Source: Rhodobacter sp. SY28-1
Lineage (GTDB): Bacteria; Pseudomonadota; Alphaproteobacteria; Rhodobacterales; Rhodobacteraceae
Reading direction: 5' to 3'
DNA: 64,000 nt
Assembly: GCF_005222785.1 (NCBI RefSeq)
Contig: NZ_STGH01000002.1
Span: 434,001 to 498,000, forward strand
Positions 6,327 to 40,201 of this stretch are shown here, one piece after another (positions within the stretch are counted from its first letter, which is position 1; each line of letters begins with the position of its first letter). Position numbers and translations under genes: made by a program. The notes below the pieces were generated by a model. The model was given only the letters and a program-made list of their open reading frames with translations. It was not told the origin of the DNA and did not search any database.

Positions 6327-7103
6327 TTAAACCACCCGTTCCACCATCATCTTCTTGATTTCGGCAATCGCCTTGGCCGGGTTCAACCCCTTGGGGCAGG
6401 TCTTCGCGCAGTTCATGATCGTGTGGCAGCGGTACAGCTTGAACGGATCTTCCAGCTGATCCAGCCGCTCGCCCGTGGCTTCATCGCGCGAGTCGATGAT
6501 CCAGCGATAGGCATGCAGCAGCGCCGCAGGCCCCAGATACCGGTCCGAGTTCCACCAGTACGACGGGCAAGAGGTCGAACACGACGCACACATCACGCAT
6601 TCATACAGCCCGTCCAACTTCTTCCGGTCCTCGATCGACTGCCGCCACTCCTTGGCCGGGCGGTTCGTCTTCGTCTCGAGCCACGGCATGATCGACGCAT
6701 GCTGGGCGTAGAAATGTGTCAGGTCCGGGATCAGGTCCTTGATGACCGCCATATGCGGCAGGGGGTAGATCTTCACGTCGCCCTTGATCTCATCGAGGCC
6801 ATAGATGCAGGCCAGCGTGTTGATCCCGTCGATGTTCATCGCGCAGGACCCGCAGATGCCCTCGCGGCAGGACCGCCGGAAGGTCAGGGTCGGGTCGATC
6901 TCGGTCTTGATCTTGATCAGCGCGTCCAGGACCATCGGACCGCAGGTATCCATGTCGACGAAATAGGTGTCGACCCGCGGGTTCTCGCCGTCATCGGGGT
7001 TCCAGCGGTAGATCTGGAACTTGCGCACGTTCCGGCCCTCGGGCTTGGGCCAGGTCTTGCCAGTGCGGATCTTGGAATTCTTCGGCAGGGTGAACTGGAC
7101 CAT
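6327..7103 (-). CDS. sdhB: Succinate dehydrogenase iron-sulfur subunit
   Basis: A 258-residue subunit of complex II that carries electrons from the SdhA flavin to quinone at the SdhCD membrane anchor. The [2Fe-2S] ligands are C79, C84, C87 and C99; the [4Fe-4S]/[3Fe-4S] region has C169-x2-C172-x2-C175-x3-C179 and C226, C232, C236-P. The length is normal. It starts 3 bp after the stop of a methyltransferase gene, with the ribosome site inside that gene's end, so it depends on read-through of the whole block inserted after sdhA. Confidence 0.97.
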
Positions 7104-7106
7104 GGG

Positions 7107-9059: not shown

Positions 9060-9410
9060 TCAGCCACCGACCAGAGGCGGAACGCCATTCGCCGCAAAGC
9101 AGCTTTGCGCCGCAGGCCGCAAGGCGATCTCGCGGATCGTGGCCTTGGTCGCCGTCCCCGCTTCCACCCCCACATCCCGCGCCAGAAGCCGCAGCTCGTT
9201 CTCGCTGGCCGCGTCCAGAATGCACTTGGTCGCCTTCCGGGCGGGTTCAGCCGGCATGTCGATGTTCACCACCGGAAACACCACCGTATGCGCCGTGCGC
9301 TTCAGCGTGTCATTGACCAGTTCGGCCGGATCGCAGGCGGCAAGCAGCAGAATGCACAAAGAGATCTGCCCTGACCTCTGAAGCTGTTTCTTGACAATGC
9401 ACTTCTTCAT
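9060..9410 (-). CDS. Small putative lipoprotein
   Basis: A 116-residue protein with an unusual basic n-region (MKKCIVKKQLQRSGQ), then hydrophobic ISLCILLLAAC with the predicted lipidation Cys at LAAC and Asp at +2, which in enterobacteria signals inner-membrane retention. The mature part contains VNDTLKRTAHTVVFPVVN and two more Cys. GAGGGA lies 4 bp before the ATG at 9410; the start overlaps the stop of the upstream gene by 4 bp. The function is unknown; it is part of the block between sdhA and sdhB. Confidence 0.65.
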   Translation of the reverse strand: MKKCIVKKQLQRSGQISLCILLLAACDPAELVNDTLKRTAHTVVFPVVNIDMPAEPARKATKCILDAASENELRLLARDVGVEAGTATKATIREIALRPAAQSCFAANGVPPLVGG

Positions 9411-10189
9411 GCCATCCCTCCCTGCGATTGCACGACCTCGCCGCGACCCGCGACCTTGAACGCGTAGGTCCAAATCTCTTCGGAAACATGCGCGTGGTGA
9501 CGCATGGTAAAGCTATTGTGGATCGACTCATGTCCATAGCGCCCGATCCGCAGCCAGCTTGCATCCCTTGGCAGGCACACTGGCGTGATCCCACGCTCGA
9601 ACGCCCAGCGCGCCAACCTGACATCTACGAACTTGCGGCTGTCGCGCATGAACTCATAGGTCGGGGCATCTGCCCCGCGTATGATCGCCGAGTTCGTGGC
9701 GATCTGGTCAACCACCGTCGCTTGATCCAAGGCGCGGTCACAGGCCCAAACTTTGCGATAGTTTGCGATCCTCTGGCGCGAAAAGGAAAAGTATCGGATC
9801 GGGTGTTTCAGGGTCGGCTTCAGGTAAAGCGACCCATGATACCCGGCCAGCCAGCGACCGGGGCCAAGTGCGTTGAACCGGTCGACAGTGCGCGAGACGA
9901 AGTCAGCACGAGGGTAGATGTCGTCGTCGACATACATCACCAGATCTTCTGCGGCAGGTTGGACGTAGAATTTGCCCACATCCATCGTGTTCTCTTCCGG
10001 AATGACCGGCACCACCCGGTCAATGCTGGCCAGTTCTGCAGGGATCACATCATACTCGTTCAGGACCACATTCAACCTGTCGACCTGCGAAGCAAGCGCT
10101 CGTACGACGTCCAGCATGCCGTCACGACGCGGCGGATAGGTGGCCAAATTCGCGACGATCACGGTTTGCCCTCGGACAGCGTGTCGCAT
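9407..10189 (-). CDS. Glycosyltransferase, family 2-like GT-A fold
   Basis: A 260-residue protein. Strand one is TVIVANLATYPPR; MYVDDDIYP near residue 85 is the DxD-type motif that binds the metal and nucleotide sugar. The C-terminal part has ARWAFERGI and a His/Trp-rich end. It overlaps the 3' end of the upstream methyltransferase by 31 bp if ATG 10189 is used; a GTG (VRGQT) inside is an alternative start that would shorten the overlap. Base composition here is less GC-rich than the sdh genes on either side, hinting at acquisition. Confidence 0.65.
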   Translation of the reverse strand: MRHAVRGQTVIVANLATYPPRRDGMLDVVRALASQVDRLNVVLNEYDVIPAELASIDRVVPVIPEENTMDVGKFYVQPAAEDLVMYVDDDIYPRADFVSRTVDRFNALGPGRWLAGYHGSLYLKPTLKHPIRYFSFSRQRIANYRKVWACDRALDQATVVDQIATNSAIIRGADAPTYEFMRDSRKFVDVRLARWAFERGITPVCLPRDASWLRIGRYGHESIHNSFTMRHHAHVSEEIWTYAFKVAGRGEVVQSQGGMA

Positions 10190-10836
10190 GGGCGCGCAAA
10201 CAGCTTGAAACTGGCAAAGGACGTTGTGCGCGGGTCGCTTCCCGGTCGCATCGGATAGGGTTGTTCGAACGCCTCGACCAAAGCGAAAGCGGGCGCATGC
10301 GCCGCTATCCAATTCGAATAGGATCGGTGCCGGACATGGGTCGCTCTGCTGGGAGTATCTGTATCCGAACTGTAGACCAGCACGAACCGCCTCGAAGCAG
10401 AGAACAGAGTCTCCATATAGCGCTCGAAGATTGCATCCTCGACCAGATGATAGATCACGTCCAAAGACATGGACATGTCGGCTTGCGCTGGATTGACTTG
10501 ATACTCTGCGTCGGTCAAAAACTGCCAGTTCTCTCGTCCAGCAAAACGCTTCCGACAGGCGGTGACGACTGCCGGGCTGATATCTACCCCGGTGTAGTTT
10601 TCAATCGTCAGAAGCGAACACTGATTGCCATCACCGCTGCCAAATTCGATGACGCTTTGCACTTCATGCGTCTTCACCAGATCATTTATGAAGCCGGCTT
10701 TGTATTCGGCCAATCTGCCGTAGGACCCTGCTCCAGAATTCCCCCCAGCTTCATATCGATCACGCCAGTAAGCATCCGAGTGGAACTCGCTAACTTCCTT
10801 CTTGCGTCGAAAAAGCGAGCGCAGCGTGACTGCCAT
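10159..10836 (-). CDS. Class I SAM-dependent methyltransferase
   Basis: A 225-residue protein. It begins with YWRDRYEAGGNSGAGSYGRLAEYK and then motif I VIEFGSGDGNQ, YTGVDIS (post-I) and DMSMSLDVIYHLVED, the order expected for a Rossmann methyltransferase. Its ATG (10836) overlaps the sdhA stop as TGATG, so it is translationally coupled to sdhA. Codon use has more A/T at third positions than sdhA. With the glycosyltransferase after it, a role in O-antigen or glycan modification is plausible but inferred. Confidence 0.75.
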   Translation of the reverse strand: MAVTLRSLFRRKKEVSEFHSDAYWRDRYEAGGNSGAGSYGRLAEYKAGFINDLVKTHEVQSVIEFGSGDGNQCSLLTIENYTGVDISPAVVTACRKRFAGRENWQFLTDAEYQVNPAQADMSMSLDVIYHLVEDAIFERYMETLFSASRRFVLVYSSDTDTPSRATHVRHRSYSNWIAAHAPAFALVEAFEQPYPMRPGSDPRTTSFASFKLFARPCDTLSEGKP

Positions 10837-12638
10837 CAGAACTTCCTTTCCGCCGGGGCGATCTTCGCCAGAGCGATCCCGCCTTGCGCCTCGGTGGTCA
10901 GAGGGTCGGTATGCACCGCCCGGTAGTCAAGCGTGACCTTGTCGCCATCCACCCAGGCCAGCGAATGTTTGCGCCAGTTGACGTCATCGCGCTGCGGGTA
11001 ATCCTCATGCGCATGCGCCCCCCGGCTTTCGGTCCGGGCATGGGCCCCGTAGATCGTCGCCAAGGCGTTCGGCATCAGGTTGGTCAACTCCAGCGTCTCC
11101 ATCAGGTCGCTGTTCCAGACGAGACTCCGGTCGGTGACATGCAGGTCATTCATCTTGCCCGCGATCACCGTCATCTTCTTCTCGCCCGCCGCCAGGGTTT
11201 CCTCGGCACGGAACACCGCCGCATCGGCCTGCATCGTGCGCTGCATCTCCAGCCGCAGTTCCGCCGTCGGAACCGCGCCCTTGGCGTTCCGCAGGTCGTC
11301 GAACCGACCCAAGGCCTTGTCGACCTCGGCCTTGTTGGTGGCAGGCACGGACGCCCCTCGATCCACCACCTGCCCCGCCCGGATCGCCGCAGCGCGACCG
11401 AACACGACGAGGTCAATCAGCGAGTTCGACCCCAGCCGGTTCGCCCCATGCACAGAAGCACACCCAGCTTCACCAACCGCCATCAGGCCCGGGAAGACTG
11501 CATCCGGGTTGTCCTTCGTCGGGTTCAGAACCTCGCCCCAATAGTTCGTCGGGATGCCGCCCATGTTGTAGTGCACCGTCGGCAGCACCGGGATCGGCTC
11601 CTTGTGCAGGTCCACGCCTGCGAAAATCCGCGCGCTTTCCGTGATCCCCGGCAACCGCAACTCCAGCGACTCGCGGGGCAGATGCGACAGGTTCAGGTGG
11701 ATGTGGTCGGCATTCGCCCCCACGCCCCGGCCTTCCCGGATCTCGATCGTCATGCAGCGGCTGACATAGTCGCGTGGCGCCAGGTCCTTGTAGTGCGGCG
11801 CATACCGCTCCATGAACCGCTCGCCCGCGCTGTTCGTCAGATACCCGCCCTCACCCCGCGCGCCCTCGGTGATAAGACAGCCCGAGCCATAGATCCCCGT
11901 CGGGTGAAACTGCACGAACTCCATGTCCTGCAGCGGAAGACCCGCCCGCGCCACCATGCCCCCGCCGTCCCCGGTGCAGGTATGCGCCGAGGTCGCGCTG
12001 AAGTAAGCCCGCCCGTAACCGCCCGTCGCCAAAACCACCATCTTCGCGTTGAAGACATGGATCGTGCCGTCGTCCAGTTTCCAGGCGACAACGCCCGTGC
12101 AGGCCCCGTCGGTGATGATCAGGTCCAGCGCGAAATATTCGATGTAGAACTCCGCGTTGTTCTTCAGCGACTGCCCATACAGGGTATGCAGGATCGCATG
12201 CCCCGTCCGGTCCGCCGCCGCACAGGTCCGCTGCACCGGCGGGCCATTCCCGAACTCGGTTGTGTGCCCGCCAAAGGGCCGCTGGTAGATCTTGCCCTCT
12301 TCGGTGCGCGAAAACGGCACCCCGTAATGCTCCAGCTCGTAGACCGCTTTCGGGGCCTCCCGCGCGAGGTATTCCATCGCGTCGGTGTCGCCCAGCCAGT
12401 CCGACCCCTTCACGGTGTCGTACATGTGCCACTGCCAGTGGTCAGGCCCCATGTTCCCAAGGCTGGCCGCAATCCCCCCCTGCGCCGCCACCGTGTGCGA
12501 CCGCGTCGGGAACACCTTCGTCACGCAGGCCGTCCGCAGCCCCTGCTCGGCCATGCCCAAGGTCGCGCGCAAGCCAGCCCCGCCAGCCCCCACCACGACC
12601 ACGTCATACTCATGCGTCTCATACGGATAGGCAGTCAT
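10836..12638 (-). CDS. sdhA: Succinate dehydrogenase flavoprotein subunit
   Basis: A 600-residue subunit oxidising succinate to fumarate. Seen: FAD-binding [12 protein letters not shown] near residues 14-25, the FAD-attachment His H48 in [11 protein letters not shown], the substrate region FVQFHPTG and [14 protein letters not shown] for the second FAD part. The length fits alphaproteobacterial SdhA. Two adjacent ATGs (12641, 12638) follow AAGGA; I use the second, which gives the better spacing and the usual 600 residues. It follows sdhD closely and is coupled to the methyltransferase downstream. Confidence 0.97.
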
Positions 12639-12649
12639 CATCAGGTCCT

Positions 12650-13021
12650 TCACAGCGCCATGCGGGCCAGGGCGAACAGCCCCGTCGCGGCAATCACCCA
12701 GGAAAGCGAGATCGCGAAGATGATCAGCATCTTCCGCGTCGTGCCCCGGGCGTAGTCCTCGATCATCGTCGTCGCGCCCATCGCGAAATGGCGCATCCCG
12801 ACCACCAGCACCAGCGCCGTCAGGATCGCCGGGAACGGGTGCGAGAAGGTCTCCAGCACCGCCTCGCGGCTCTGGCCCAGCGCCCGGCCGAACACGTACA
12901 GCCAGACCGGCACCAGGAAAGCCAATCCGACGGCCGAGACCGTCATCGACCAGTGATGCTCCGTCCCGGCATGGGCGGCACCCCGACCCTCGGCGCGCTT
13001 GCGGGGAGTGATATAGCGCAT
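12650..13021 (-). CDS. sdhD: Succinate dehydrogenase membrane anchor subunit
   Basis: A 123-residue protein with three hydrophobic segments (about residues 27-46, 63-82 and 97-121). H78 in [14 protein letters not shown] aligns with the heme b ligand of the HxxxGxxxxxxDY pattern in SdhD. It anchors SdhAB to the membrane and forms the quinone site with SdhC. ATG 13021 lies 12 bp after the sdhC stop. It is membrane-located and part of the sdhCDA(x6)B operon. Confidence 0.95.
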
Positions 13022-13032
13022 GGCGGCTTCCC

Positions 13033-13428
13033 TCACTGAACCAGAAGAATTGTGATCACAGTCAGCACGACCGACCCGATGACGCAGGCCCAGCCCAGCT
13101 TTTCCGCCGTGGGCACGTCCAGCCCGTGGCCCGCATCGAAGTAGATGTGCCGCAAGCCCGCCAGGTAGTGATACCATACCGCCCAAAGCGACCCGGTGAA
13201 CACCAGGTCCCCGAACCAGCTGGTCGCCACTGCATTGGCCGTTGCGAAATACGCATCCGACGTCGCCGCGGCCAGCAGCCACCACACCCCCAGCACCACC
13301 CCCGCCACCAGCGCATGTCCGGTGATCCGCGTCAGGATCGAGCTGACCGCCGTCATCTGGATGCGGTAGACCTGCAGATGCGGAGACAGGGGGCGGGATA
13401 CGGGCGCGGCCCGCTTGACGTCTGCCAT
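13033..13428 (-). CDS. sdhC: Succinate dehydrogenase cytochrome b556 subunit
   Basis: A 131-residue protein with the family's N-terminal [11 protein letters not shown] motif, quinone-site SSILTRITG (S30, R34) and heme-ligand H87 in [13 protein letters not shown]. It has three membrane segments. It is the first gene of the operon, with about 200 bp of non-coding DNA upstream carrying two TGTGATCACA-type boxes at -150 to -180. A third copy of the palindrome lies inside the last codons (13051-13060), where it encodes TVIT. Confidence 0.96.
13051..13060. promoter_or_regulatory. Perfect TGTGATCACA palindrome inside the sdhC 3' end
   Basis: An exact copy of the box found in arrays upstream of sdhC and sucC. 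It lies 30 bp upstream of the sdhD start, within codons for T-V-I-T of SdhC. It could be a chance result of codon use or a downstream operator that helps looping with the boxes at 13578-13608, about 530 bp away. Confidence 0.3.
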
Positions 13429-13577
13429 GATCGATCCTCACGTCTGGCGGCGCGGGTCCATCGGGCCAGCGCCAGGCTGTCGTTCGCTGTCCTGCATAGC
13501 GCGGATTTTGCGCGTGTCACGCAGGGATTGCCGCAACTGCAACATGTTGTCGCTATCATGCGCGGATTTCTTTGCTT

Positions 13578-13608
13578 TGTGATCACGACTTTCAGAGGCG
13601 TGATCACA
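13578..13608. promoter_or_regulatory. Two phased TGTGATCACA-type boxes upstream of sdhC
   Basis: Box 1 is TGTGATCACG at 13578-13587 and box 2 is CGTGATCACA at 13599-13608, each one mismatch from the perfect palindrome TGTGATCACA. The start-to-start spacing is 21 bp, two helical turns, and identical to the spacing of the three boxes upstream of sucC. They lie 150-180 bp upstream of the sdhC ATG and 20-50 bp from the end of the convergently placed upstream gene, so they belong to the sdh promoter. The regulator is unknown. Confidence 0.7.
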
Positions 13609-25349: not shown

Positions 25350-25401
25350 TGTGATCACAATTTTCCGTCGTGTGATCACAGCCTCAAAGCCTGTGATCAC
25401 A
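25350..25401. promoter_or_regulatory. Three phased TGTGATCACA boxes upstream of sucC
   Basis: Perfect copies of TGTGATCACA at 25350-25359, 25371-25380 and 25392-25401. Successive starts are exactly 21 bp apart, so all three face the same side of the helix. They lie 112-163 bp before the sucC ATG and about 106 bp before the divergent aminotransferase start. Two boxes with the same spacing lie upstream of sdhC. A cooperative DNA-binding dimer controlling TCA-cycle genes is the simplest reading. Confidence 0.75.
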
Positions 25402-25512: not shown

Positions 25513-26706
<1,194 letters not shown>

Positions 26707-26711
26707 AGCTC

Positions 26712-27596
26712 ATGTCCGTTCTCGTCAACAAGAACACCCGCGTCATCTGCCAGGGCTTCACCGGCTCGCAGGGTACCTTCCACTCCGAACAGGCCATCGC
26801 CTACGGGACGCAAATGGTCGGCGGCGTGACCCCCGGCAAGGGCGGGACCGAGCATCTCGGCCTCCCCGTCTTCGACAGCGTCCATGAGGCTGTGGCCAAG
26901 ACCCAAGCCGATGCCACTGCGATCTACGTCCCCCCGCCCTTCGCCGCCGACTCGATCCTGGAAGCCATCGACGCCGAGATCCCGCTGATCGTCTGCATCA
27001 CCGAAGGCATCCCGGTCCTCGACATGATGAAGGTCAAGCGAGCCCTCATCAACTCGAAGTCCCGCCTGATCGGCCCGAACTGCCCCGGCGTCCTGACCCC
27101 CGGCGAATGCAAGATCGGCATCATGCCGGGCTCGATCTTCTCCAAGGGCTCGGTCGGGGTTGTGTCGCGCTCCGGCACCCTTACCTATGAGGCCGTGAAA
27201 CAGACCACCGACGTCGGCCTCGGCCAATCCACCGCCGTTGGCATCGGCGGCGACCCGATCAAGGGCACCGAACACATCGACGTGCTCGAGATGTTCCTGG
27301 CCGACCCCGACACCCACTCGATCATCATGATCGGCGAGATCGGCGGTTCGGCGGAAGAGGACGCCGCCCAGTTCCTCGCGGACGAAAAGAAGAAGGGCCG
27401 CTGGAAGCCCACCGCCGGTTTCATCGCCGGCCGCACCGCCCCCCCCGGTCGCCGCATGGGCCACGCCGGGGCCATCGTCGCCGGCGGCAAGGGTGACGCG
27501 GAATCGAAGATCCAGGCCATGCTCAGCGCCGGGATCGTGGTGGCCGACAGCCCGGCGGGCCTCGGTGAAGCCGTGCTGAAGGCGATCAAGGGCTAG
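26712..27596 (+). CDS. sucD: Succinyl-CoA synthetase alpha subunit
   Basis: A 294-residue subunit with the CoA-binding Rossmann half ([17 protein letters not shown]) and the phosphorylated catalytic His H251 in [29 protein letters not shown] and SRSGTLTYE are also conserved. It pairs with SucC in the cytosol. A glycosyltransferase ATG begins one base after the stop, so in this genome the sucCD message continues into a sugar-transferase gene rather than sucAB. Confidence 0.97.
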
Positions 27597-27597
27597 C

Positions 27598-28725
27598 ATG
27601 GGACAGGACGGACAGATTGGGGTCGTGACCGGAACGCTCACTTGGGCGCTTTGTGTCTCGACCTACAACCGCGTCGACCTGCTCGAGGTCTGCGTGCGCC
27701 ATGCGCTTGCCCAGACCCGCCTGCCCTCCGAGATCGTCATCGTGGATGCCAGCCCAGACTGGGACGGCAACAGCCGCCGGATCGTCCCCATGGCCGAGGC
27801 TGCCGGCGTGCCTATCCAATACCTGCCCGCCCCGAAGAAGTCGCTTCCCGCCCAGCGCAACCATGGCATCAAGGCCGCCTCGGCCGATATCCTGTTCCTG
27901 ATCGACGACGACGCCTTCCTGCACAGCGATTGCGCCGAAGCCATCATGGCGGTCTACGAGGCCGACCGCGACCAGCGCGTCGCGGCGGTCTCGGCCAGCG
28001 ATGCCCCGCTGACAGGCGCCGATGGCCCAGCCGCGGGCGTGGCCGCCGCCGGAAAGACCGGCGCGTCCAAGGCCCGGCTGACCGAAGTCATCCTGTCGCG
28101 CTCAAGTCTGGCGCGCTTTCTCTGGGTCGAGCTTCTGATGATGTCGGCCGACCGCGTGTTCATTCCTTACGATGGCCGCTGGCACGTCCCGGACGAAGCA
28201 ACCGTGGCCGCCAGCGGCCTGGGTCCGATCCATGCGGTGAAGACAATCGGTGGCTATCGCATGACGGTCCGCCGCGCGATGGCGCTGGCGGAACCCTTCG
28301 ACAACGACCTGCTCGCCTATGCCTCGGCGGAAGACCTGGATGCGACCTATCGCTTCTCCCGCCATGGCTGGATCGTTCAGGCGCAGGACGCCAGAATCTA
28401 CCATCACGAGGCGATGGCCGGGCGGCTGAAGCGTGAACAATCGACCATGCTGGGCGTTCTGAACGTAGCCTTCCTGCTGCGAAAGCACTCGAACACGCCA
28501 GTCAGAAGCATGATCCAGTTCTACGTGATGCTCCTGCGCCGCCTGAACGCCGAGTTTCTCAAAGACCTGTTGTCGCGGCGCTGGGCGTTCCGGCAGTTCC
28601 GTACCATGTGTGCGGCGGTCCCGGTCACGTTGGGCATCATGCGCCAGGACCGGTCCACCCTTGGCCCATACTATGCCCCAATCCAGCGCCGGGTGCTGGG
28701 CCTCCCGCCACTCTCGCAGCCATGA
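27598..28725 (+). CDS. Glycosyltransferase family 2
   Basis: A 375-residue GT-A enzyme: WALCVSTYNRVDLLEVCVRHALAQT as the nucleotide-binding start, EIVIVDASPDW, KSLPAQRNHGI and FLIDDDAF with the DxD motif near residue 104. YASAEDLDATYRFSRHGW is the typical acceptor-side ED motif. No transmembrane helix is obvious. It follows sucD by one base, with the ribosome site inside sucD, so expression follows the suc promoter. Possible role: O-antigen or capsule synthesis (inference). Confidence 0.82.
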   Translation: MGQDGQIGVVTGTLTWALCVSTYNRVDLLEVCVRHALAQTRLPSEIVIVDASPDWDGNSRRIVPMAEAAGVPIQYLPAPKKSLPAQRNHGIKAASADILFLIDDDAFLHSDCAEAIMAVYEADRDQRVAAVSASDAPLTGADGPAAGVAAAGKTGASKARLTEVILSRSSLARFLWVELLMMSADRVFIPYDGRWHVPDEATVAASGLGPIHAVKTIGGYRMTVRRAMALAEPFDNDLLAYASAEDLDATYRFSRHGWIVQAQDARIYHHEAMAGRLKREQSTMLGVLNVAFLLRKHSNTPVRSMIQFYVMLLRRLNAEFLKDLLSRRWAFRQFRTMCAAVPVTLGIMRQDRSTLGPYYAPIQRRVLGLPPLSQP

Positions 28726-28841
28726 CCCGCCCCTCAACCCTCTGACGTCCGCAACCCGCCTCTTCCGTTCCTCAACTCCGGCGAATTTCCTCATGATCGA
28801 CCAATCGCCCATCGCCGCCATCGCCGCACCTCGCGGCGGCG

Positions 28842-28860
28842 GATCCGGCAGCGCCGGATC
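28842..28860. terminator. Hairpin between convergent glycosyltransferase genes
   Basis: Perfect 8-bp stem GATCCGGC/GCCGGATC with a 3-base loop, between genes ending at 28725 (+) and 28958 (-). The rest of the 230-bp gap shows no gene. Confidence 0.55.
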
Positions 28861-28957
28861 GGCCGGGTCGGTCTGTGAGGTTCCTGCCGGTCCGCCGCAG
28901 CTCTGCTGCCAGCGCCTCACGATTGTCGGCGGCAGCGACAGTCCCTCCTGCTCCGCC

Positions 28958-30142
28958 TCAGTCGGTCGCAAGCGCCTCGTAGACCCGCGCCGTGAGCTTG
29001 GCCGAGTCGAAGTCATCGACTGCCTTTTGCCGCGCCGCCAAGCGTATGCCCGCAGCCAGCCCCAGCGTCCCGACCAACCGGCGCAGCGCGTCGGTCAGCG
29101 CCGTGATATCGCCGGGCGGGACCAGAAGGCCCTGCTTGCCGTCCTCGATCATGTCGGGCGTCCCGCCGACGCGCGAGCAGATCACCGGCAGGCCAGTTGC
29201 CATGGCCTCCATGACCGACACCGGCGCGGCCTCGCCCAGGCTTGCCAGTACCTTGATGTCGCACCTCTGCATCAGCGCCGCCACCTCGTCCCCGGAAAGC
29301 GGGCCGAGCAGCTGCACCGCATCCTCCAGCTGCAACCGGGCGATTGCCTCGCGGATCTCGGTTTCGGCTTGTCCGCTACCGGCGATCAGGTAGCGCAGGT
29401 CATAGCCTTCGTCGCGCAGGCGGCGGACAGCTTCCAGAACCTGGACATGGCCCTTTCCGGGATGCAGCCGCGCGATCGTGCAGAGGGTCCAGGTATCGCC
29501 CGGTGCGCGATCCGGGCGCTCCACCCAGCCGAACCGGTCGATGTCGATGCCCATGGACAACGCCGAGACGGGACGCCCCGGACAAAGATCGGCAATTTCC
29601 GCGGCCAGGGCCCGGGTCACCGCAAAGATATGACGGGCGTTCTCGCCCTTGAGGGTGATGTCCCCGCCCCAGTCCTGGGTCGCACCATGGAGGGTCAGGC
29701 TGTAGGGCAGCGCGCAGGCGCGTTCGGCGATGGCGGCGACATGGGCAGCGTCGCCGAAGGAATGCAGATGGACCAGATCCGCGTTGCGCGCCTTGGCCAG
29801 CCTGATCAGCCGCGCGGCGCTGGGCAACAGGACCAGACGGCGCAACCAGCCGCGCATCCCGCCAGCCCTGGCACGCGCCAAGTAGCGCAGCATCCTCAGC
29901 GTTTGCACCGGATGCAGCACGAGATAGCCAAGATCACCAGCGGCGGGCGGGAACAGCGTCTCGAACTCACCGCCGGCGCGTGTCAGGATCGCCTCGGAAA
30001 AGTATTGCGGCGCCGGGCGGCGCGTGGAGACAAAGCCGACCCTCACGCCAAGCGCGGCAAAATCGCGTCCCTGGTCAACGATATAGGTCTGCCACGGCGC
30101 CGGAAACTCGGCGGAAAGGACAAGCAGGCTTTTTATCGGCAT
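28958..30142 (-). CDS. Glycosyltransferase family 4 (GT-B)
   Basis: A 394-residue GT-B protein: LLVLSAEFPAPWQTYIVDQ start, HLHSFGDAAHVAAIAERA in the acceptor half, CTIARLHPGKGHVQVLEAVRRL at the domain hinge, and the C-terminal E-x7-E signature EAAPVSVMEAMATGLPVICSRVGG that binds the nucleotide sugar. This is typical of exopolysaccharide glycosyltransferases. It is oriented against sucCD and sucAB, and so separates them into two transcription units. Confidence 0.88.
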   Translation of the reverse strand: MPIKSLLVLSAEFPAPWQTYIVDQGRDFAALGVRVGFVSTRRPAPQYFSEAILTRAGGEFETLFPPAAGDLGYLVLHPVQTLRMLRYLARARAGGMRGWLRRLVLLPSAARLIRLAKARNADLVHLHSFGDAAHVAAIAERACALPYSLTLHGATQDWGGDITLKGENARHIFAVTRALAAEIADLCPGRPVSALSMGIDIDRFGWVERPDRAPGDTWTLCTIARLHPGKGHVQVLEAVRRLRDEGYDLRYLIAGSGQAETEIREAIARLQLEDAVQLLGPLSGDEVAALMQRCDIKVLASLGEAAPVSVMEAMATGLPVICSRVGGTPDMIEDGKQGLLVPPGDITALTDALRRLVGTLGLAAGIRLAARQKAVDDFDSAKLTARVYEALATD

Positions 30143-30312
30143 GAGAACGACCTGAAAAAAGGAATCCGCAGTGGTATGGCCCGTAGATCAAATGGCGCCT
30201 ACCACATTGAAACACTTCTGTTAAGCAGCGATTTCCCTGTCGGGGCGCTGCTCGTCAAGACGTCAGAAAGTCCCCAGCCGGCCCGCGATTGCCAGAGGAA
30301 TGGAGCCAGAGC

Positions 30313-33282
30313 ATGACCGATCAATCCCCGAACGCCCAGTTCCAGGCATCCTCCTTCATGGATGGCGCCAATGCCGATTACATAGACCAGCTCGCGGCGC
30401 GCCATGCCGCCGATCCGGCTTCGGTCGATCCGCAATGGGCCGAATTCTTCCGCGCCCTCGGCGACAGCGAGCTTGACGCCAAGCGCGCCGCTTCCGGCCC
30501 CTCCTGGGCGCGTGCCGACTGGCCGCCCCAGCCGGCCGACGACCTGACCGCCGCGCTGACCGGCGAATGGGCCGCACCCCCTCCGGCCAAGGAAGCCAAA
30601 GCCGCCGGCGCGAAGATCGCCGCCAAGGCCGCCGAGGCGGGCGTCCAGCTGTCCGACGAACAGATCCAGCGCGCCGTCCTCGATTCCATCCGCGCCCTGA
30701 TGATCATCCGCGCCTACCGGATCCGTGGCCACCTCGCCGCCGATCTCGACCCGCTCGGCCTGGCCGAGCGCGGCAGCCACCCGGAACTCGATCCGGCCTC
30801 CTACGGCTTTGCCGAAGCTGACATGGACCGCCCGATCTTCATCGACAACGTGCTGGGCCTGACCCACGCCTCGATGCGCCAGATCATCGACATCGTCCGG
30901 CGCACCTACTGCGGCACCTTCGCGCTGCAGTACATGCACATCTCCGACCCCGAGCAGGCCGCCTGGCTGAAGGAACGGATCGAAGGTTACGGCAAGGAAA
31001 TCGCCTTCACGCGCGAAGGCCGCAAGGCGATCCTCAACAAGCTGGTCGAGGCCGAGGGCTACGAAAAGTTCCTTCATGTCAAATACATGGGCACCAAACG
31101 CTTTGGCCTTGACGGGGCCGAGGCGGTGATCCCCGCAATGGAACAGATCATCAAGCGCGGCGGCGCGCTGGGGGTGAAGGAAATCATCATCGGCATGCCG
31201 CACCGGGGCCGCCTGAACATCCTCGCCAACGTGATGCAAAAGCCCTACCGGGCGATCTTCCACGAATTCCAGGGCGGCAGCTACAAGCCCGAGGACGTCG
31301 ATGGCTCCGGCGACGTGAAGTACCACCTCGGCGCCTCCAGCGACCGGGAGTTTGACGGCAACAAGGTCCACCTGTCGCTGACCGCCAACCCCTCGCACCT
31401 TGAAGCGGTGAACCCGGTGGTGCTGGGCAAGGTCCGCGCCAAGCAGGACCAGCTGAACGACACGGCTGAACGCATCGCGGTCCTGCCGATCCTCCTGCAT
31501 GGTGACGCGGCCTTCGCCGGTCAGGGCGTCGTCGCGGAATGCCTGCAACTGTCGGGCATCAAGGGCCACCGCACCGGCGGCTGCATCCACATCATCGTCA
31601 ACAACCAGATCGGCTTCACCACCGCCCCGGCCTTCAGCCGCAGCTCTCCGTATCCCACGGACATCGCCCTGATGGTCGAGGCGCCGATCTTCCACGTCAA
31701 CGGCGACGACCCCGAGGCCGTGGTCCACGCCGCCAAGGTCGCGACCGAGTTCCGCCAGAAGTTCCACAAGGACGTGGTCATCGACATCTTCTGCTACCGC
31801 CGCTTCGGTCACAACGAAGGCGACGAGCCGATGTTCACCAACCCGGCGATGTACAACCGCATCCGCAAGCAGAAGACCACGCTGCAGCTCTACACCGACC
31901 GCCTCGTCGCCGACGGCCTCATCCCCGAAGGCGAAATCGAAGACATGAAGGCCGCCTTCCAGGCCCGCCTGAACGAGGAATTCGAGGCTGGCAAGGCCTT
32001 CCTGCCGAACAAGGCCGACTGGCTGGATGGCCGCTGGAAGAACCTCCAGACCAAGGACCTGAACAACTACCAGCGCGGCGAAACCTGGATCAAGCCCGAG
32101 ACCCTGGCCGAGATCGGTGCCGCGCTGACCCGCGTCCCGGACGGCTTCGACATGCACAAGACCGTCGCGCGCCAGCTGGACGCCAAGAAGGAAATGTTCG
32201 CCAAGGGCCAGGGCTTCGACTGGGCCACGGCCGAGGCGCTGGCCTTCGGCTCGCTCCAGACCGAAGGCTTTGCCGTGCGCCTTTCGGGGCAGGATTGCAC
32301 CCGTGGCACCTTCTCGCAGCGCCACTCCGGCTGGATCGACCAGACGACCGAGGAACGCCACTATCCCCTGAACCACATCCGCCCCGGCCAGGCGCGGTAT
32401 GAGGTCATCGACTCGATGCTGTCCGAATACGCCGTCCTCGGCTTCGAATACGGCTACTCGCTGTCCGAACCGAACGCGCTGACCCTCTGGGAAGCCCAGT
32501 TCGGCGACTTCGCCAACGGCGCGCAGATCATGATCGACCAGTTCATCAACTCGTCGGAATCGAAGTGGCTGCGGATGTCGGGCCTCGTGATGCTCCTGCC
32601 GCACGGCTACGAAGGCCAGGGCCCGGAGCACTCCTCCGCCCGTCTGGAACGCTTCCTGCAACTCAGCGCCGAGGACAACTGGATCGTCGCCAACTGCACG
32701 ACCCCGGCGAACTACTTCCACATCCTGCGCCGCCAGCTGCATCGGACCTACCGCAAACCGCTGGTCCTGATGACGCCCAAGTCGCTCCTGCGGCATCCGA
32801 TGGCGATCAGCCGGGCCGAGGATTTCACCGACGGTTCCACCTTCCACCGCGTTCTCTGGGACGATGCGCAGAAGGGCAACTCGACCCTGAAGCTGAAGGC
32901 CGACGACAAGATCAAGCGCGTCGTCCTCTGTTCCGGCAAGGTCTACTACGACCTTCTCGCCGAACGCGACGCGCAAGGGCTGGAGGACACCTACCTCCTC
33001 CGCGTCGAACAACTGTACCCGGTGCCCACGATCTCGCTGACCCAGGAACTCGGCCGCTTCCCCAAGGCCGATTTCGTCTGGTGCCAGGAGGAACCCAAGA
33101 ACCAGGGCGCCTGGTCCTTCATCGAGCCCGAGATGGAGGTGATCCTGACCAAGCTGCGCGGCAAGGCCACCCGGATGTCCTACGCCGGCCGCAAGGCCAG
33201 CGCCTCGCCCGCCACCGGCCTCGCCTCCCGCCACAAATACGAACAGCAACAACTCGTCGCCCAGGCCCTGGGCCTGAACTGA
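30313..33282 (+). CDS. sucA: 2-oxoglutarate dehydrogenase E1 component
   Basis: A 989-residue thiamine-diphosphate enzyme decarboxylating 2-oxoglutarate. Domain order: N-terminal SucB-binding segment ([19 protein letters not shown]), a short linker rich in Ala/Lys, then the ThDP core with [23 protein letters not shown], the [14 protein letters not shown] and [10 protein letters not shown] motifs, and the C-terminal transketolase-like half ([27 protein letters not shown]-type region). ATG 30313 is chosen because GGAG lies 7 bp before it and the N-terminus then matches the family. SucB follows 22 bp downstream. Confidence 0.97.
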
Positions 33283-33304
33283 CCTCGAAGACCGGAGAAG
33301 ACAA

Positions 33305-34561
<1,257 letters not shown>

Positions 34562-34605
34562 GGGACAACCTAGTCAGAGGTTTACAGGCATTTTTGGAGA
34601 AGAGA

Positions 34606-34953
34606 ATGCGACTACGATTAGCGCTCACCTTCACTCTGGTTCTTGTGTCCAGCGTGAACGCGCAAACACTAACTTGTTCAACCGACTCCTTGGGCATCAC
34701 GCGGTGCAGTGATGGGACGACGTACTCGACTGATAGTTTAGGTATAACCCGTGATAACCACGGCAATACTTGGTCGACGGATTCCCTAGGCATAACCAGG
34801 GGCAGCGACGGAAGCACCTATTCAACAGATAGCCTCGGCATCACGCGGGACAATCAGGGCAATAGTTGGAGCACAGATTCCCTAGGTATCACGCGAGGCA
34901 GCAACGGAACGACCTGCTCAACAGATTCCCTTGGAATCATGCGCTGCTACTAG
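34606..34953 (+). CDS. Secreted protein built from six 16-residue tandem repeats
   Basis: A 115-residue protein. Residues 1-19 form a signal peptide (MRLRLALTFTLVLVSSVNA). The mature part is six copies of [CYW]STDSLGITR followed by a variable xxxGxx segment: five full 16-residue units and a last one ending in RCY. Cys occur only in the first and final units, which suggests a disulfide closing the array. GGAG lies 6 bp before ATG 34606. The DNA is clearly less GC-rich than its neighbours, so it may be acquired. The function is unknown to me. Confidence 0.8.
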   Translation: MRLRLALTFTLVLVSSVNAQTLTCSTDSLGITRCSDGTTYSTDSLGITRDNHGNTWSTDSLGITRGSDGSTYSTDSLGITRDNQGNSWSTDSLGITRGSNGTTCSTDSLGIMRCY

Positions 34954-34975
34954 CTGCCAGAAAGTCACCTCTCCT

Positions 34976-34992
34976 CCCCTCGCTGCGAGGGG
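34976..34992. terminator. Hairpin after the repeat-protein gene
   Basis: Perfect 7-bp stem CCCCTCG/CGAGGGG with a 3-base loop, 23 bp after the stop at 34953 and 38 bp before the next start. Possibly a terminator that insulates the inserted gene. Confidence 0.5.
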
Positions 34993-35029
34993 CGGGGAGC
35001 AACCGGCCTAACCCAGCAGGAGCCCCCAA

Positions 35030-35269
35030 ATGACCCAACTCCTGATCCAGACCTCCGCCCCCGACTACGCCGCCTGGAAATCCGCCTTCGACGCCGAGGC
35101 CGAGAACATCGCCGCCGCCAGCCTCAACACACTGCAAATCTGGAAGGGCGACCAGAACGCCATCCTCGTCCTCTTCGAGGTCCACAACCGCAAGAACGCC
35201 GAAGCCTGGCTCGCCAAGCAATCCGCCCTCGGCCACGCCCTCACCGCGCAATTCCTGCAAACCGCATGA
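35030..35269 (+). CDS. Small alpha/beta-barrel-type protein (ABM-like)
   Basis: A 79-residue protein: MTQLLIQTSAPDYAAWKSAFDA, then LQIWKGDQNAILVLFEVHNRKNAEAWL. The pattern strand-helix-strand-strand-helix resembles dimeric ferredoxin-like barrel proteins (antibiotic-biosynthesis monooxygenase-like). No catalytic residues can be pointed out. CAGGAG precedes ATG 35030. Its stop overlaps the next start as ATGA. Confidence 0.6.
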   Translation: MTQLLIQTSAPDYAAWKSAFDAEAENIAAASLNTLQIWKGDQNAILVLFEVHNRKNAEAWLAKQSALGHALTAQFLQTA

Positions 35270-35727
35270 CCCACCGCGCCGCCCTCACGACCCCCGTAGG
35301 GTGCGCCACAGCGCACCGTCCGACCCTGCGCCTCCTCGCCGCCCTCCTCCTCCTCGCCACCCCCGCCGCCGCCCAGGTCATCCCCACCGGCACCCCCGCC
35401 GCCGACATCCTTCTCTCCCAGGCCATCGCCGAACACCGCGTGTTCCTGACCTGCTCCGCGCTCGACCCCGCCACCCACGCCCAGATCGCGGAAAACTGGC
35501 AGCGCGACGTCACCGCCGCCGCCGCAATCCTGACGGCGAACCAGGTCCCGCCCGAGGCCGTCACCGCCTTCACCACCGCCGCGCAGCCGGAGAACTTGAT
35601 GCCCGCCCCCGACACCCCCTGGGCCCAGGTCAAGACCCTCTGCGAGACCCAGCCCGACTGGCAGCAGCGCTACTACCAGTTCAACCTCACCATCCTCGAA
35701 CTCAAGCTTCCGGCGGCCTTCGAATGA
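35266..35727 (+). CDS. Small secreted protein of unknown function
   Basis: A 153-residue protein. The hydrophobic LRLLAALLLLATPAAAQ (about residues 21-37) is a signal peptide, preceded by an unusually long n-region. That n-region (VGCATAHRP) is encoded by a copy of the dispersed GTAGGGTGCGC-CACA-GCGCACC repeat, so the repeat may have inserted in the gene's 5' end. Mature part: two Cys, LLSQAIAEHRVFLTCSALDP and a C-terminal YYQFNLTILELKLP helix. The ATGA overlap with the upstream gene supports this start. Confidence 0.6.
   Translation: MTHRAALTTPVGCATAHRPTLRLLAALLLLATPAAAQVIPTGTPAADILLSQAIAEHRVFLTCSALDPATHAQIAENWQRDVTAAAAILTANQVPPEAVTAFTTAAQPENLMPAPDTPWAQVKTLCETQPDWQQRYYQFNLTILELKLPAAFE
35296..35317. 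repeat. Dispersed inverted repeat GTAGGGTGCGC...GCGCACC (copy 1, inside a CDS)
   Basis: GGGTGCGC and GCGCACC form a stem around a short CACA-type loop. A related copy is at 47681-47700 in an intergenic region. This one sits in frame in the 5' part of the gene at 35266. Confidence 0.55.
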
Positions 35728-35803
35728 CCCGCACAGCCCCGCTCTTGACATGTGTCCCGCTCCGCCCTCCGGTAGCCGGGACCCAAACGACCCGGAGAGC
35801 CTG

Positions 35804-37372
35804 ATGTTCATCCCCGCCAAGGGCCTCGACTATCGCGAATTCCTCGACGCCCTGCACGCGCAACTGCGCTTTGACTGGTATCTTGAGATTGGCTCGCAGA
35901 CCGGCCGGTCGCTGGCGAAATCCCGCAGCCCCTCCATCGCCGTGGACCCGCAGTTCCGCATCAAGTACGACGTCGCCGGCAACAAGTCGCAGCTGCACCT
36001 CTACCAGCAAACCAGCGACGACTTCTTCGCCGACGGCCACCTGAAGACCCTGAAAGCCAGGCCCGGCTTCAGCTTCCTCGACGGGATGCACCTCTACGAA
36101 TACCTCCTGCGCGACTTCATCAATGCCGAGGCCGCAGGCACCCCCAAATCGGTCATCGCGCTGCACGACTGCTGCCCCTTCGGCCACGGCATGACCACGC
36201 GCGACCTCGACAACATCCCGCGCGGCGCCTGGACGGGTGACGTCTGGAAACTGATCCCGATCCTGCAGGAATACCGCCCTGACCTCACGATCCAGGTCCT
36301 CGACTGCGCGCCCACCGGGTTGGTCGTCGTCTCGAACCTCGACCCGAAGAACAAGGCGCTGACCAAGGCCTATGACGAAATCCTGAGCCGCTTCACCGAC
36401 CTGACCCTGGCCGACTATGGGGTCGAAAAGTTCTACGCCAGCTTCACCTACGTCGACCCGGTGAAACTCGCCAACGACGGTTTCCAGACCTTCCGCCCCG
36501 CCGCACGGGAATACATCCCGGCCGAAAAGCCCCTCGTCGCCGCAACGACCCTCGCTCCCGCGGAACCGGTGAACACCCAGAAAACCACCGTCCACAACGT
36601 CGACCTCTACTCCGGCCACCGCGTGCTGCGCGACTTCGGCAACGACCTTGCGCGCTGCATCTCTGCGCCCCTGTCGGAACCCGTCGACGTCTATGTCGGC
36701 GTCCATGTCATTGACCGCCCGCTGGATACCGGGCGCTTCAGGATCGGCATCCAGACCGAGCAATACCTCGACAAGACCGGCCAGCCGATGTGGCGCATCC
36801 CCAAGGAACGCTTCCGGCAAAGGCACGCGACCTTCTACGATGTCCTCCTCGACTTCAGCGCCGACAACGCCCCCGCCTATGACTTCCTGCCCGAAGATCT
36901 GCGCGCCAAGGTCCTGTTCGGCCCGCACATCTTCCCCGAAGCCCCCATCACCCCCGATTTCCAACCCACCCCGCCGGTCTTCTTCGGCGCGCTGAACGAC
37001 CGCCGCCGGACGCTCCTCGCGGACCTCCAGGCGAAAGGCCCCATTGAGGTCGCCCCCCACGGCACCTTCGGCCGTCCGCTGGATGCGCTGATCGCGAAAC
37101 AGGGTGCCGTCCTGAACCTGCACTTCCGCGAGGGCACCTATTCCGAATACCCCCGCTTCCTGAAAGCCTACCTGCGCGGCAAGCCCGTGGTCTCGGAACC
37201 GCTCGCCCCACCACTGCAGTCTGACTTGCACTATTTCAACCTTGAAGCCCAGCTTACGGCCCAGAAGACCGAGAAGATTTTCGAGAATCTTGCATCCTTC
37301 GCCGCCCAGCACAGCTTCCAGGCCTTCCTGCAAGCCGCCCTCGATCGCGCCCGGATGCGCAAGGCGGGCTGA
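35804..37372 (+). CDS. Methyltransferase-like / glycosyltransferase-like two-part protein
   Basis: A 522-residue protein. Residues 1-200 look like a class I methyltransferase of the Methyltransf_24 style: YLEIGSQTGRSLA (motif I), SIAVDPQF, FSFLDGMHLYEYLLRDF and VIALHDCCPFG. The second half, from about residue 250, contains CISAPLSEPVDVYVGVHVID and FFGALNDRRRTLLADLQ, and FREGTYSEYPRFLKAYLRGKPVVSEPL near the end, reminiscent of GT-B C-terminal domains. GGAG precedes ATG 35804. It is likely a fused glycan-modifying enzyme. A glycosyltransferase gene follows 3 bp later. Confidence 0.65.
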   Translation: MFIPAKGLDYREFLDALHAQLRFDWYLEIGSQTGRSLAKSRSPSIAVDPQFRIKYDVAGNKSQLHLYQQTSDDFFADGHLKTLKARPGFSFLDGMHLYEYLLRDFINAEAAGTPKSVIALHDCCPFGHGMTTRDLDNIPRGAWTGDVWKLIPILQEYRPDLTIQVLDCAPTGLVVVSNLDPKNKALTKAYDEILSRFTDLTLADYGVEKFYASFTYVDPVKLANDGFQTFRPAAREYIPAEKPLVAATTLAPAEPVNTQKTTVHNVDLYSGHRVLRDFGNDLARCISAPLSEPVDVYVGVHVIDRPLDTGRFRIGIQTEQYLDKTGQPMWRIPKERFRQRHATFYDVLLDFSADNAPAYDFLPEDLRAKVLFGPHIFPEAPITPDFQPTPPVFFGALNDRRRTLLADLQAKGPIEVAPHGTFGRPLDALIAKQGAVLNLHFREGTYSEYPRFLKAYLRGKPVVSEPLAPPLQSDLHYFNLEAQLTAQKTEKIFENLASFAAQHSFQAFLQAALDRARMRKAG

Positions 37373-37375
37373 CGG

Positions 37376-38335
37376 ATGGGCCGCATCGCACTGGTCAGTT
37401 GCATGCGGAACGAGGGGATCCATCTCCTCGAATGGCTCGCCTATCACCGCGTGATCGGCTTCGGCCCGGTGGTGATCTGCACCAACGATTGCGACGACGG
37501 CTCCGACACCCTCCTCGACCGCCTCGCCACCCAGGGCGAGGTGACCCACCTGCCGAACCCCCTCCCCCCCGGCACCCCACCCCAGGCCGCAGGCATCCCC
37601 CGCGCCATGGCGCACCTGGCCCAGACCGATGCCGAATGGCTCGCCCATCTCGACAGCGACGAATTCCTGACCATCTCCCCCGGTGCCGCCCCCGTCCAGA
37701 CCCTGATCGACCGCGCAAAAGACGCCCACACCATCGCGCTTCCCTGGCGCATGTTCGGCGACAACGGCCACCGCGACTGGCCCGGCGAAACCCTCCGCGC
37801 CTTCACCGCCTGCGAACCCGCCCCCGACCCCACCACCGTCAAGTTCAAGTCGCTCTTCCGCTTTCGCGCCTTCGCCTCGGCCTCCGACCACATGCCGACG
37901 CAGCCCCTGATCGACGCCCCCCTCGCTGTCAACGCCGCCGGAGAGCCCCTCTCCTCCGCCCCCCTCCACGGCGCCCCGCGCTCACGCTACCAGCCAGTGG
38001 AAACCGCCCTCAGGGGCGGCGCGCAGATCAACCACTACGCCACTCGGTCGACCGACGTCTTCCTCTTGAAGAACGACCGCGGCCGCGGCATGGGCCCGCC
38101 GTCCGACAAATACCACCTCGGCTCGAAATGGCACCGCATCGCCAACCGGAACGACACGCAGGACCGCTCCATCCTCGCCCGCTGGCCCGAAACCGCGGCC
38201 GAGCTTTCTCGCCTCCGCGCCCTTCCCGGCATCACTGACGCCGAAGCTCGTTGCCGCGACTGGTTCGCCGCCACCAAGGCCGCCCGCCTCACCCCCGACA
38301 ATCTGACCCGCTGGACGAAAAGGGCCGCCGCATGA
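37376..38335 (+). CDS. Glycosyltransferase family 2/GT92-like
   Basis: A 319-residue protein starting RIALVSCMRNEGIHLLEWLAYHRVIGF, a hallmark of the Glyco_tranf_2_4/GT92 group; ICTNDCDDGSD and WLAHLDSDEFL (DxD, near residue 95) follow. C-terminal QINHYATRSTDVFLLKNDRG is also family-typical. It begins right after the upstream two-part protein, and its stop overlaps the next start as ATGA. The acceptor is unknown. Confidence 0.82.
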   Translation: MGRIALVSCMRNEGIHLLEWLAYHRVIGFGPVVICTNDCDDGSDTLLDRLATQGEVTHLPNPLPPGTPPQAAGIPRAMAHLAQTDAEWLAHLDSDEFLTISPGAAPVQTLIDRAKDAHTIALPWRMFGDNGHRDWPGETLRAFTACEPAPDPTTVKFKSLFRFRAFASASDHMPTQPLIDAPLAVNAAGEPLSSAPLHGAPRSRYQPVETALRGGAQINHYATRSTDVFLLKNDRGRGMGPPSDKYHLGSKWHRIANRNDTQDRSILARWPETAAELSRLRALPGITDAEARCRDWFAATKAARLTPDNLTRWTKRAAA

Positions 38336-38727
38336 CCCCCGAACTGACCGTCCTCGCCCTTGCCGGCCTGCTCCAGGCCCTCCAGTTCGTCCTCTTCGCC
38401 GTCCGCGCGAACGTCGAGCTGGGCACCGGCTACACCTCCAGCCCCCGCGACCGCCCCCCCTCGCGCGAGATGTCCATCCTGACCGGCCGCTTGCAGCGCG
38501 CGCTGAACAACCACTTCGAAGGGCTGATCCTGTTCACCCTCGCCGTTGTGGTCGTTACCCTCGGCAACCAGTCCACCGTCACCACGCAATATGCCGCCTG
38601 GACCTACCTCGTGGCCCGCCTCCTCTACATCCCCGCCTATGCCTTCGGCTGGCGCCCTTGGCGCTCGGCCATCTGGGGCGTAGGCTTCTTTGCAACCCTG
38701 ACGATGATCGTGGCCGCCCTTATCTGA
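38332..38727 (+). CDS. MAPEG family membrane protein
   Basis: A 131-residue protein with four hydrophobic segments. The MAPEG signature [21 protein letters not shown] (residues 46-66) is present, then [26 protein letters not shown]. Eukaryotic members are glutathione-dependent; bacterial roles are unknown. ATG 38332 overlaps the glycosyltransferase stop by 4 bp. Confidence 0.85.
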
Positions 38728-38730
38728 CCC

Positions 38731-38790
38731 TTTCATCTGTCCGAAAATATCCTGCGGGGGTCCGGGGGTGCAAAACCCCCCGCTCCGACA
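38731..38790 (+). repeat. Dispersed repeat, G-rich variant upstream of lpd
   Basis: GAAAATATCCTGCGGGGG followed by a GGGGGT-N5-ACCCCC hairpin (38764-38780). It has the same layout as the copy at 14887-14946. It lies 4 bp after the MAPEG stop and 23 bp before the lpd start, so it may end the upstream transcript. Confidence 0.55.
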
Positions 38791-38812
38791 CGAACCACAA
38801 GGAACCGACCAA

Positions 38813-40201
38813 ATGGCAGATTTCGACACCATCATCATCGGCGCCGGCCCCGGCGGTTACGTCGCCGCGATCCGGGCCGCGCAACTGGGGCAAAAGGTCG
38901 CCTGCGTCGAGGGACGCGAGACCCTCGGCGGCACCTGCCTCAACGTCGGTTGCATCCCGTCGAAGGCCATGCTCCACGCCACCCACATGCTGCACGAAAC
39001 GCATGAGAACTTCGAGAAGATGGGCCTGATCGGCGCCTCCCCGAAAGTCGACTGGGCCAAGATGCAGGCCTACAAGGATGATGTCGTCACGGGCAACACC
39101 AAGGGGATCGAGTTCCTGTTCAAGAAGAACAAGGTCACCTCGCTGAAAGGCTGGGCGACGATCCCCGCCCCGGGCCAGGTGAAGGTCGGCGACGACCTCC
39201 ACACCGCGAAGAACATCGTCATCGCCACCGGGTCCGAGGCCTCCTCTCTCCCCGGCGTGACCGTGGACGAGGAAACCATCGTCACCTCCACCGGCGCCCT
39301 CACTCTGGCGAAGCCCCCGAAGACCATGGTCGTCATCGGTGCCGGCGTCATCGGGCTTGAGATGGGCTCCGTCTACGCCCGCCTCGGCACCGAGGTCACC
39401 GTGGTCGAATACCTCGACGCCATCACCCCCGGCATGGACGCCGAGGTCGCCAAGACCTTCCAGCGCATCCTAACCAAGCAAGGCCTGAAGTTCGTCCTTG
39501 GGGCCGCCGTCCAGTCCGTCACCAAGACCAAGAAGGGCGCGACCGTCACCTACAAGCTTAAGAAGAACGACGCTGAGGCCACCCTCGACGCCGACATCGT
39601 TCTCGTCGCCACCGGCCGCAAACCCTATACCACAGGCCTCGGCCTCGAAGCCCTGGGCGTCGAAATGGGCCCCCGTGGCACGATCAAGACCGACGCCCAC
39701 TGGCAGACCAACATCCCCGGCCTCTTCGCCATCGGCGACGCCATCGCCGGGCCGATGCTGGCCCACAAGGCGGAAGACGAGGGCATGGCCGTGGCCGAGG
39801 TCCTGTCCGGCAAGCACGGCCACGTCAACTATGGCGTCATCCCCGGCGTGATCTACACCACGCCCGAGGTCGCCAACGTCGGCCAGACCGAGGAGCAGCT
39901 CAAAGCCGAAGGCCGCGCCTACAAGGTCGGCAAGTTCCCCTTCATGGGCAACGCCCGCGCCAAGGCCGTCTTCCAGGCCGAAGGCTTCGTCAAGCTGATC
40001 GCCGACGCCGCCACCGACCGCATCCTCGGCTGCCACATCATCGGCCCGGCCGCAGGCGACCTGATCCACGAGGTCTGCGTCGCGATGGAGTTCGGCGCCA
40101 GCGCGCAGGACCTCGCGCTCACCTGCCACGCGCACCCGACCTGGTCCGAAGCCGTGCGCGAAGCCGCCCTTGCCTGCGGCGACGGGGCAATTCACGCGTG
40201 A
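38813..40201 (+). CDS. lpd: Dihydrolipoyl dehydrogenase (E3)
   Basis: A 462-residue flavoenzyme re-oxidising lipoyl groups. Seen: FAD site [14 protein letters not shown] (residues 6-19), redox disulfide [13 protein letters not shown] (C42, C47), NAD site [21 protein letters not shown], the [20 protein letters not shown] region, and interface motif HAHPTWSE with catalytic H441 and E446. AAGGA precedes ATG 38813. It serves 2-oxoglutarate dehydrogenase by location. A long hairpin follows its stop. Confidence 0.97.

Follow-up and report, generated by a model that had tools for sequence, protein, structure and literature searches.

Phased palindromic boxes upstream of sucC and sdhC in Rhodobacter sp. 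SY28-1 as probable operator arrays of the tricarboxylic acid cycle regulator AkgR

In regulators of the GntR family, one dimer reads one palindrome. We take the GntR regulator RSP_0981 of Rhodobacter sphaeroides to be AkgR. In the literature, AkgR is described as an activator of the tricarboxylic acid (TCA) cycle with the core GTGATCAC among its sites (PMC6365646), and RSP_0981 has predicted control of sucCD, sdh, and the 2-oxoglutarate dehydrogenase genes (PMC4344238). PS417_07240, a GntR protein of the Pseudomonas simiae deoxyribonate cluster that is reported to be 32% identical to AkgR, has also been proposed to bind GTGATCAC, but at a single box that covers −47 to −40 relative to its start codon, in another pathway and with no phased array described in the section examined (PMC6365646). 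TCA genes of this order or of others in the class are also controlled by CceR/GapR and PckR, but these belong to the LacI family, and their main targets are glycolysis and gluconeogenesis. Here, we analyzed a 64,000-nucleotide stretch of the Rhodobacter sp. SY28-1 genome (GCF_005222785.1, contig NZ_STGH01000002.1, positions 434,001 to 498,000; hereafter the window), in which 10-bp palindromic boxes stand in regular arrays before the TCA cycle genes sucC and sdhC.

We read these boxes as operator arrays of the GntR-family (FCD-type) TCA regulator AkgR, with the protein encoded at G000:C1:1133071-1133715 of the same genome as the candidate regulator, and assign this reading a probability of about 0.86. 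An earlier note on this DNA had named AkgR and CceR as candidates and left open which TCA regulator was at work; the AkgR assignment answers that question, as AkgR fits best, with GTGATCAC said to be in its sites (PMC6365646). The arrays are thus an instance of the known AkgR-type regulon in a new species and not a new kind of system. Compared with the R. sphaeroides regulon, the window genome belongs to another genus, has a sucC array of three boxes with 21/21 bp spacing, and carries its regulator gene away from the contig of the suc cluster and without a box of its own; the less familiar features are the rigid phasing, the lineage-specific third box, and the lost autoregulatory box. The 21-bp tandem layout was not found in the literature examined, a body of work that did not include the main AkgR paper, and we do not claim that it is unpublished. 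Searching the literature for the TGTGATCACA string returned nothing related.

Upstream of sucC, three perfect TGTGATCACA boxes follow each other with a period of 21 bp and span 112–163 bp ahead of the ATG at 25513 (Table 1). Two further boxes, TGTGATCACG and CGTGATCACA, stand at the same period 150–180 bp ahead of the sdhC start codon on the minus strand; each has one mismatch to TGTGATCACA and retains the core intact. The exact core GTGATCAC, the 8-bp center of the palindrome, is accordingly present in all five promoter boxes, and all three box-to-box intervals measure 21 bp. The earlier description of both arrays agrees with the sequence base for base, as do the distances given for the start codons. 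It had also called such order unlikely by chance. The window holds six sites with at most one mismatch to TGTGATCACA, compared with a mean of 1.00 and a maximum of 3 in 100 shuffles, none of which reached six. A fourth perfect copy, absent from the earlier account, lies inside sdhC. It is probably incidental because it overlaps the codons T-V-I-T in a fairly conserved C-terminal stretch of the product and is perfect at the same place in just 2 of the 37 relatives examined (G191 and G115), and it was set aside as a looping site on the same grounds.

The motif is rare in the genome. Perfect TGTGATCACA occurs four times in 4.28 Mb (11 contigs), always inside the window, and the reversed control does not occur at all; with up to one mismatch allowed there are 25 places genome-wide as opposed to 8 for the control. 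Exact core pairs, defined by starts 11–41 bp apart, number three, two overlapping at sucC and one at sdhC. A motif common across the genome without link to promoters would have spoken against the reading of the earlier note; instead, core pairs form solely before these two genes. Nine of the 19 one-mismatch places besides the sdhC boxes were inspected (L005-L011, L014, L015), and none of the nine was a convincing further target: three were intragenic, and the remainder adjoin, e.g., genes for a rhamnosyltransferase, a transposase, an EF-hand protein, and a sulfur-transport protein.

Across the family, sampled as 295 genomes, nearly all of different genera, pairs of exact GTGATCAC cores are present in 268 genomes and missing from 27, most commonly with two pairs per genome, and the reversed control gives a pair in one genome only. 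The full 21-bp pattern with up to three mismatches was recovered in 258/295 genomes and its control in 3/295. An exact pair stood before sucC in all 41 loci read, one per genome, and before sdhC in 38 of 40, where G090 had no box at all and G154 a single exact core. These two counts speak for the identity of the genes and the position of the boxes, not for their frequency, because the genomes were fetched for having pairs. Loci of repeat genomes (L016-L045, L243, and L252) were left out of the counts, and L043 (G033; a 21-bp sucC pair with its proximal core at −104) is missing from the 41 although it is not a repeat. Pairs, whose absence from close relatives would have spoken against the reading of the earlier note, were present before both genes in the relatives fetched, including the genus mate G191. 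In alignments, the letters of the box hardly change between genomes, whereas the spacer is variable and the flanks are weakly conserved.

The proximal sucC core starts 107–162 bp before the ATG and falls at 114–122 bp in 29/41 loci (hand count), whereas that of sdhC is looser (115–263 bp, with G090 and G154 set aside). Among the 75 pairs listed, from 37 of the 268 genomes, a hand count gave 65 at 21 bp and 5 at 20 bp, and the other entries were 13, 18, 18, 27, and 31 bp. Of these, the pair at 13 bp stands directly before akgR in G187. The fetched sucC set could not be used for spacing counts because it came mostly from a fixed 21-bp search. The small genome G265 has 11 core pairs of GTGATCAC on several contigs with mixed spacings, two of them at 21 bp. 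In G042, a 21-bp pair (L234, G042:C16, boxes at 2794 and 2815) is located 153 and 132 bp before the ATG of the fumarase C gene, which extends the target set in that genome to a third TCA enzyme. Outside the family, pairs of any allowed spacing were found in 21 of the 332 genomes from the rest of the class (reversed control, 2/332) and 21-bp pairs in just two. One of these two (L255, G440:C189, 992-1020) precedes a GntR/FCD gene whose product is 32% identical to the AkgR candidate.

Triple arrays with up to two mismatches occur in 8 of the 295 family genomes, and exact triples in four (the window genome, G191, G285, and G135), with the triple standing before sucC in the first three. At named loci, exact triples before sucC were found in Pseudotabrizicola formosa (L162), Pseudotabrizicola sediminis (L164), and a Pseudotabrizicola metagenome-assembled genome (MAG; L174), and a Gemmobacter MAG (L159) has an exact triple and, 26 bp further, a fourth box. 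The third box is therefore a feature of related genomes and not an accident of one assembly.

A regulator encoded within the window was rejected, as whole-genome searches for GntR and FCD domains gave no match there but 33 GntR and 23 FCD matches elsewhere in the genome. Pfam scans of 50 open reading frames (ORFs) of the window, mostly picked by length and codon-position GC and not covering all of it, returned a single transcription-factor-like protein, with an HxlR helix-turn-helix domain (41098-42240). The candidate was found through 16 small box-bearing genomes with few FCD genes, in which those close to the boxes pointed to a single group. This group occurred in 14 of the 16, its other 13 members being 55–67% identical to the G090 member, and the remaining two genomes gave strong matches to the group in a separate search. 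The member in the window genome is 63% identical to that of G090, while other GntR proteins reach at most 38% over long alignments (short local matches go up to 47% over 45 residues). This protein has GntR and FCD domains, is 98% identical to proteins of Rhodobacter calidifons and Tabrizicola thermarum, and has McbR (4p9f) as its nearest solved relative by sequence. The same genome also encodes a 39%-identical paralog at C6:85878.

With an ortholog cut-off of E ≤ 1e-70, placed in a gap between matches of 5e-78 and 2e-58, the pair and the gene co-occur closely. According to tables tallied by hand, 261 of the 295 genomes have both, 7 the pair only, 4 the gene only, and 23 neither (Fisher p 3e-24, with genomes counted as independent), and the corresponding numbers for 260 good-quality genomes are 236, 3, 3, and 18 (Fisher p 7e-22). 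In the class-wide set, the ortholog was called in 5/5 family genomes and in 0/332 others, two of which had weaker matches (2e-41 and 1e-44; 38–41% identity); orthologs and 21-bp pairs are both nearly confined to the family. Among 25 mapped loci, selected for bearing boxes, the ortholog adjoins lpd, where the suc cluster ends, in 13; in the remaining 12, the stretch does not have both genes in view. A box core lies 17–49 bp before the start of the regulator gene, as set by alignment, in 12 of 14 divergent orthologs (L099-L116 loci), a position that would suit a repressor site.

Several observations weigh against assigning the boxes to AkgR. The Fisher test makes no correction for phylogeny. Seven genomes have pairs but no called ortholog, and although four of them are less than 80% complete, G114, G256, and G019 are 100%, 93%, and 91% complete; four others (G040, G147, G155, and G291) have the gene without exact pairs. 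G090 has the regulator gene and the sucC pair, yet no box before sdhC. No box was detected from −250 to +60 of akgR in the window genome (L102) or of 79 of the closest orthologs (L117-L196, excluding L146, for which too little upstream sequence was present), and a sigma-70 consensus scan of the sucC and sdhC upstream regions found no promoter. Both RSP_0981 and the mapped orthologs are linked to the TCA cluster, yet the locus numbers in PMC4344238 place RSP_0981 on its sdh side, and the orthologs lie on the lpd side. The protein is a candidate equivalent of RSP_0981, and no R. sphaeroides record was among the 80 named loci matching it. Binding and activation by AkgR at these boxes in this species are what we infer from the comparisons above; TGTGATCACA itself is a real, conserved site, most likely of this regulator.

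Other carbon-metabolism regulators might own the boxes, above all CceR of the LacI family, which we take to be the same protein as GapR (RSP_1663). The R. sphaeroides CceR regulon includes the kinds of genes that bear boxes here, i.e., those for succinate dehydrogenase, 2-oxoglutarate dehydrogenase, and fumarase (PMC11323563), so that a second regulator acts on these genes, a further point against AkgR, and GapR has predicted control of mdh (PMC4052901). However, these TCA enzymes fall outside the CceR regulon of Paracoccus denitrificans (PMC11323563), and the GapR palindrome is 20 bp long (PMC4052901) as opposed to the 10-bp palindrome with weak flanks found here, a comparison of length and not of letters; together with the mention of GTGATCAC among the AkgR sites (PMC6365646) and the way in which box presence follows a single orthologous group of GntR proteins, this makes CceR decidedly unlikely. 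Binding by some other GntR/FCD paralog of AkgR is also unlikely, even if GntR proteins of about 32% identity can share a palindrome, as proposed for PS417_07240 (PMC6365646) and as the gene behind the L255 pair might suggest. The window genome has a paralog in the 39%-identical protein at C6:85878, but in many box-bearing genomes the ortholog is the single match at E ≤ 1e-25, and among the 11 genomes with a weak best match (5e-28 to 2e-58), exact pairs are absent from 7 and present in 4.

The box could further be viewed as two CRP half-sites, TGTGA and its complement, set end to end, and the letters do match the CRP consensus, which would point to a CRP/FNR-type regulator. Yet the half-sites TGTGA and TCACA need a 6-bp gap for CRP, while here they abut, and we consider this explanation very improbable. 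Scarcely credible is the proposal that the boxes arose by chance or serve as structural DNA, whether curved or nucleoid-binding, and are not operators. It draws on the AT-rich tracts that recur about every 10 bp downstream of the sucC boxes (41 regions; peak at 9.75 bp; none of 1000 within-row shuffles was as strong, a control that ignores the kinship of the rows) and on the AT-rich middle of the spacer between boxes (over 74 arrays, 72% AT compared with 41% for the upstream flank). Structural DNA does not fit with a box that is nearly letter-perfect while its spacer varies, with a conservation of pairs far above the control, or with a presence that tracks one regulator gene.

If AkgR is the regulator, each 10-bp palindrome would hold one dimer, and neighboring dimers would sit on the same side of the helix, near enough to touch, because the boxes are 21 bp, or two helical turns, apart. 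Aligned upstream of the promoter, the dimers may contact each other as well as RNA polymerase, and AkgR would switch on the sdh and suc genes, presumably when the cell needs flux through 2-oxoglutarate or succinate. Arrays located upstream of the expected promoter would suit an activator that acts from about −90 or farther out, and the AT-rich tracts and spacers could aid bending or polymerase contacts. The earlier suggestion of a cooperative TCA regulator thus stands as far as the TCA regulator is concerned, whereas cooperativity is inferred because the spacing is fixed at two helical turns. More tentatively, with odds that we would put somewhat below even, the TCA activator may operate throughout the family as a helically phased cooperative complex of several dimers, with strict selection on the 20–21-bp period, AT-rich DNA at nearly half that period leading to the promoter, and a gain set by how many boxes are present. 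The Tabrizicola/Pseudotabrizicola-like lineage would then have been rewired by the addition of a third sucC box and the loss of the regulator's own box, with the gene moved off the cluster in the window genome. The operator code, nearly free of mismatches, extends to 267 of the 294 genera sampled in the family. Its natural variants with one, two, three, and four boxes offer a series for testing the effects of phasing and box number on the output of a GntR-type TCA activator, and the architecture of the arrays is worth experiment.

Table 1 Positions in the window of the boxes, the candidate promoter elements, and the associated TCA cycle genes
Feature	Position	Strand	Remark
AkgR-type box 1, distal, before sucC	25350..25359	.	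TGTGATCACA
AkgR-type box 2 before sucC	25371..25380	.	TGTGATCACA
AkgR-type box 3, proximal, before sucC	25392..25401	.	TGTGATCACA
AkgR-type box, distal, before sdhC	13599..13608	.	CGTGATCACA
AkgR-type box, proximal, before sdhC	13578..13587	.	TGTGATCACG
Fourth perfect copy, inside sdhC	13051..13060	.	TGTGATCACA; probably incidental
Candidate sdhC −35 element	13515..13520	-	GTGACA; picked by eye, missed by consensus scan
Candidate sdhC −10 element	13493..13498	-	TATGCA; picked by eye, missed by consensus scan
sucC	25513..26706	+	Succinyl-CoA synthetase beta chain (ATP-grasp_2, Ligase_CoA)
sucD	26712..27596	+	Succinyl-CoA synthetase alpha chain
sucA	30289..33282	+	2-oxoglutarate dehydrogenase E1
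sucB	33305..34561	+	Dihydrolipoyl acyltransferase E2
lpd	38768..40201	+	Dihydrolipoyl dehydrogenase
sdhC	13033..13428	-	
sdhD	12650..13021	-	
sdhA	10836..12653	-	
sdhB	6327..7103	-	

The candidate −35 and −10 elements of sdhC are separated by 16 bp, and the GTGAC of the former is seen at about equal distance in many of the aligned sdhC upstream sequences. Both gene runs of the window are split. About 3.7 kb with methyltransferase-like ORFs lie between sdhA and sdhB in the sdh run (6327-13428), and in the suc run (25513-40201), glycosyltransferases stand between sucD and sucA, whereas the gap between sucB and lpd holds ORFs that match a glycosyltransferase and, weakly, a methyltransferase.
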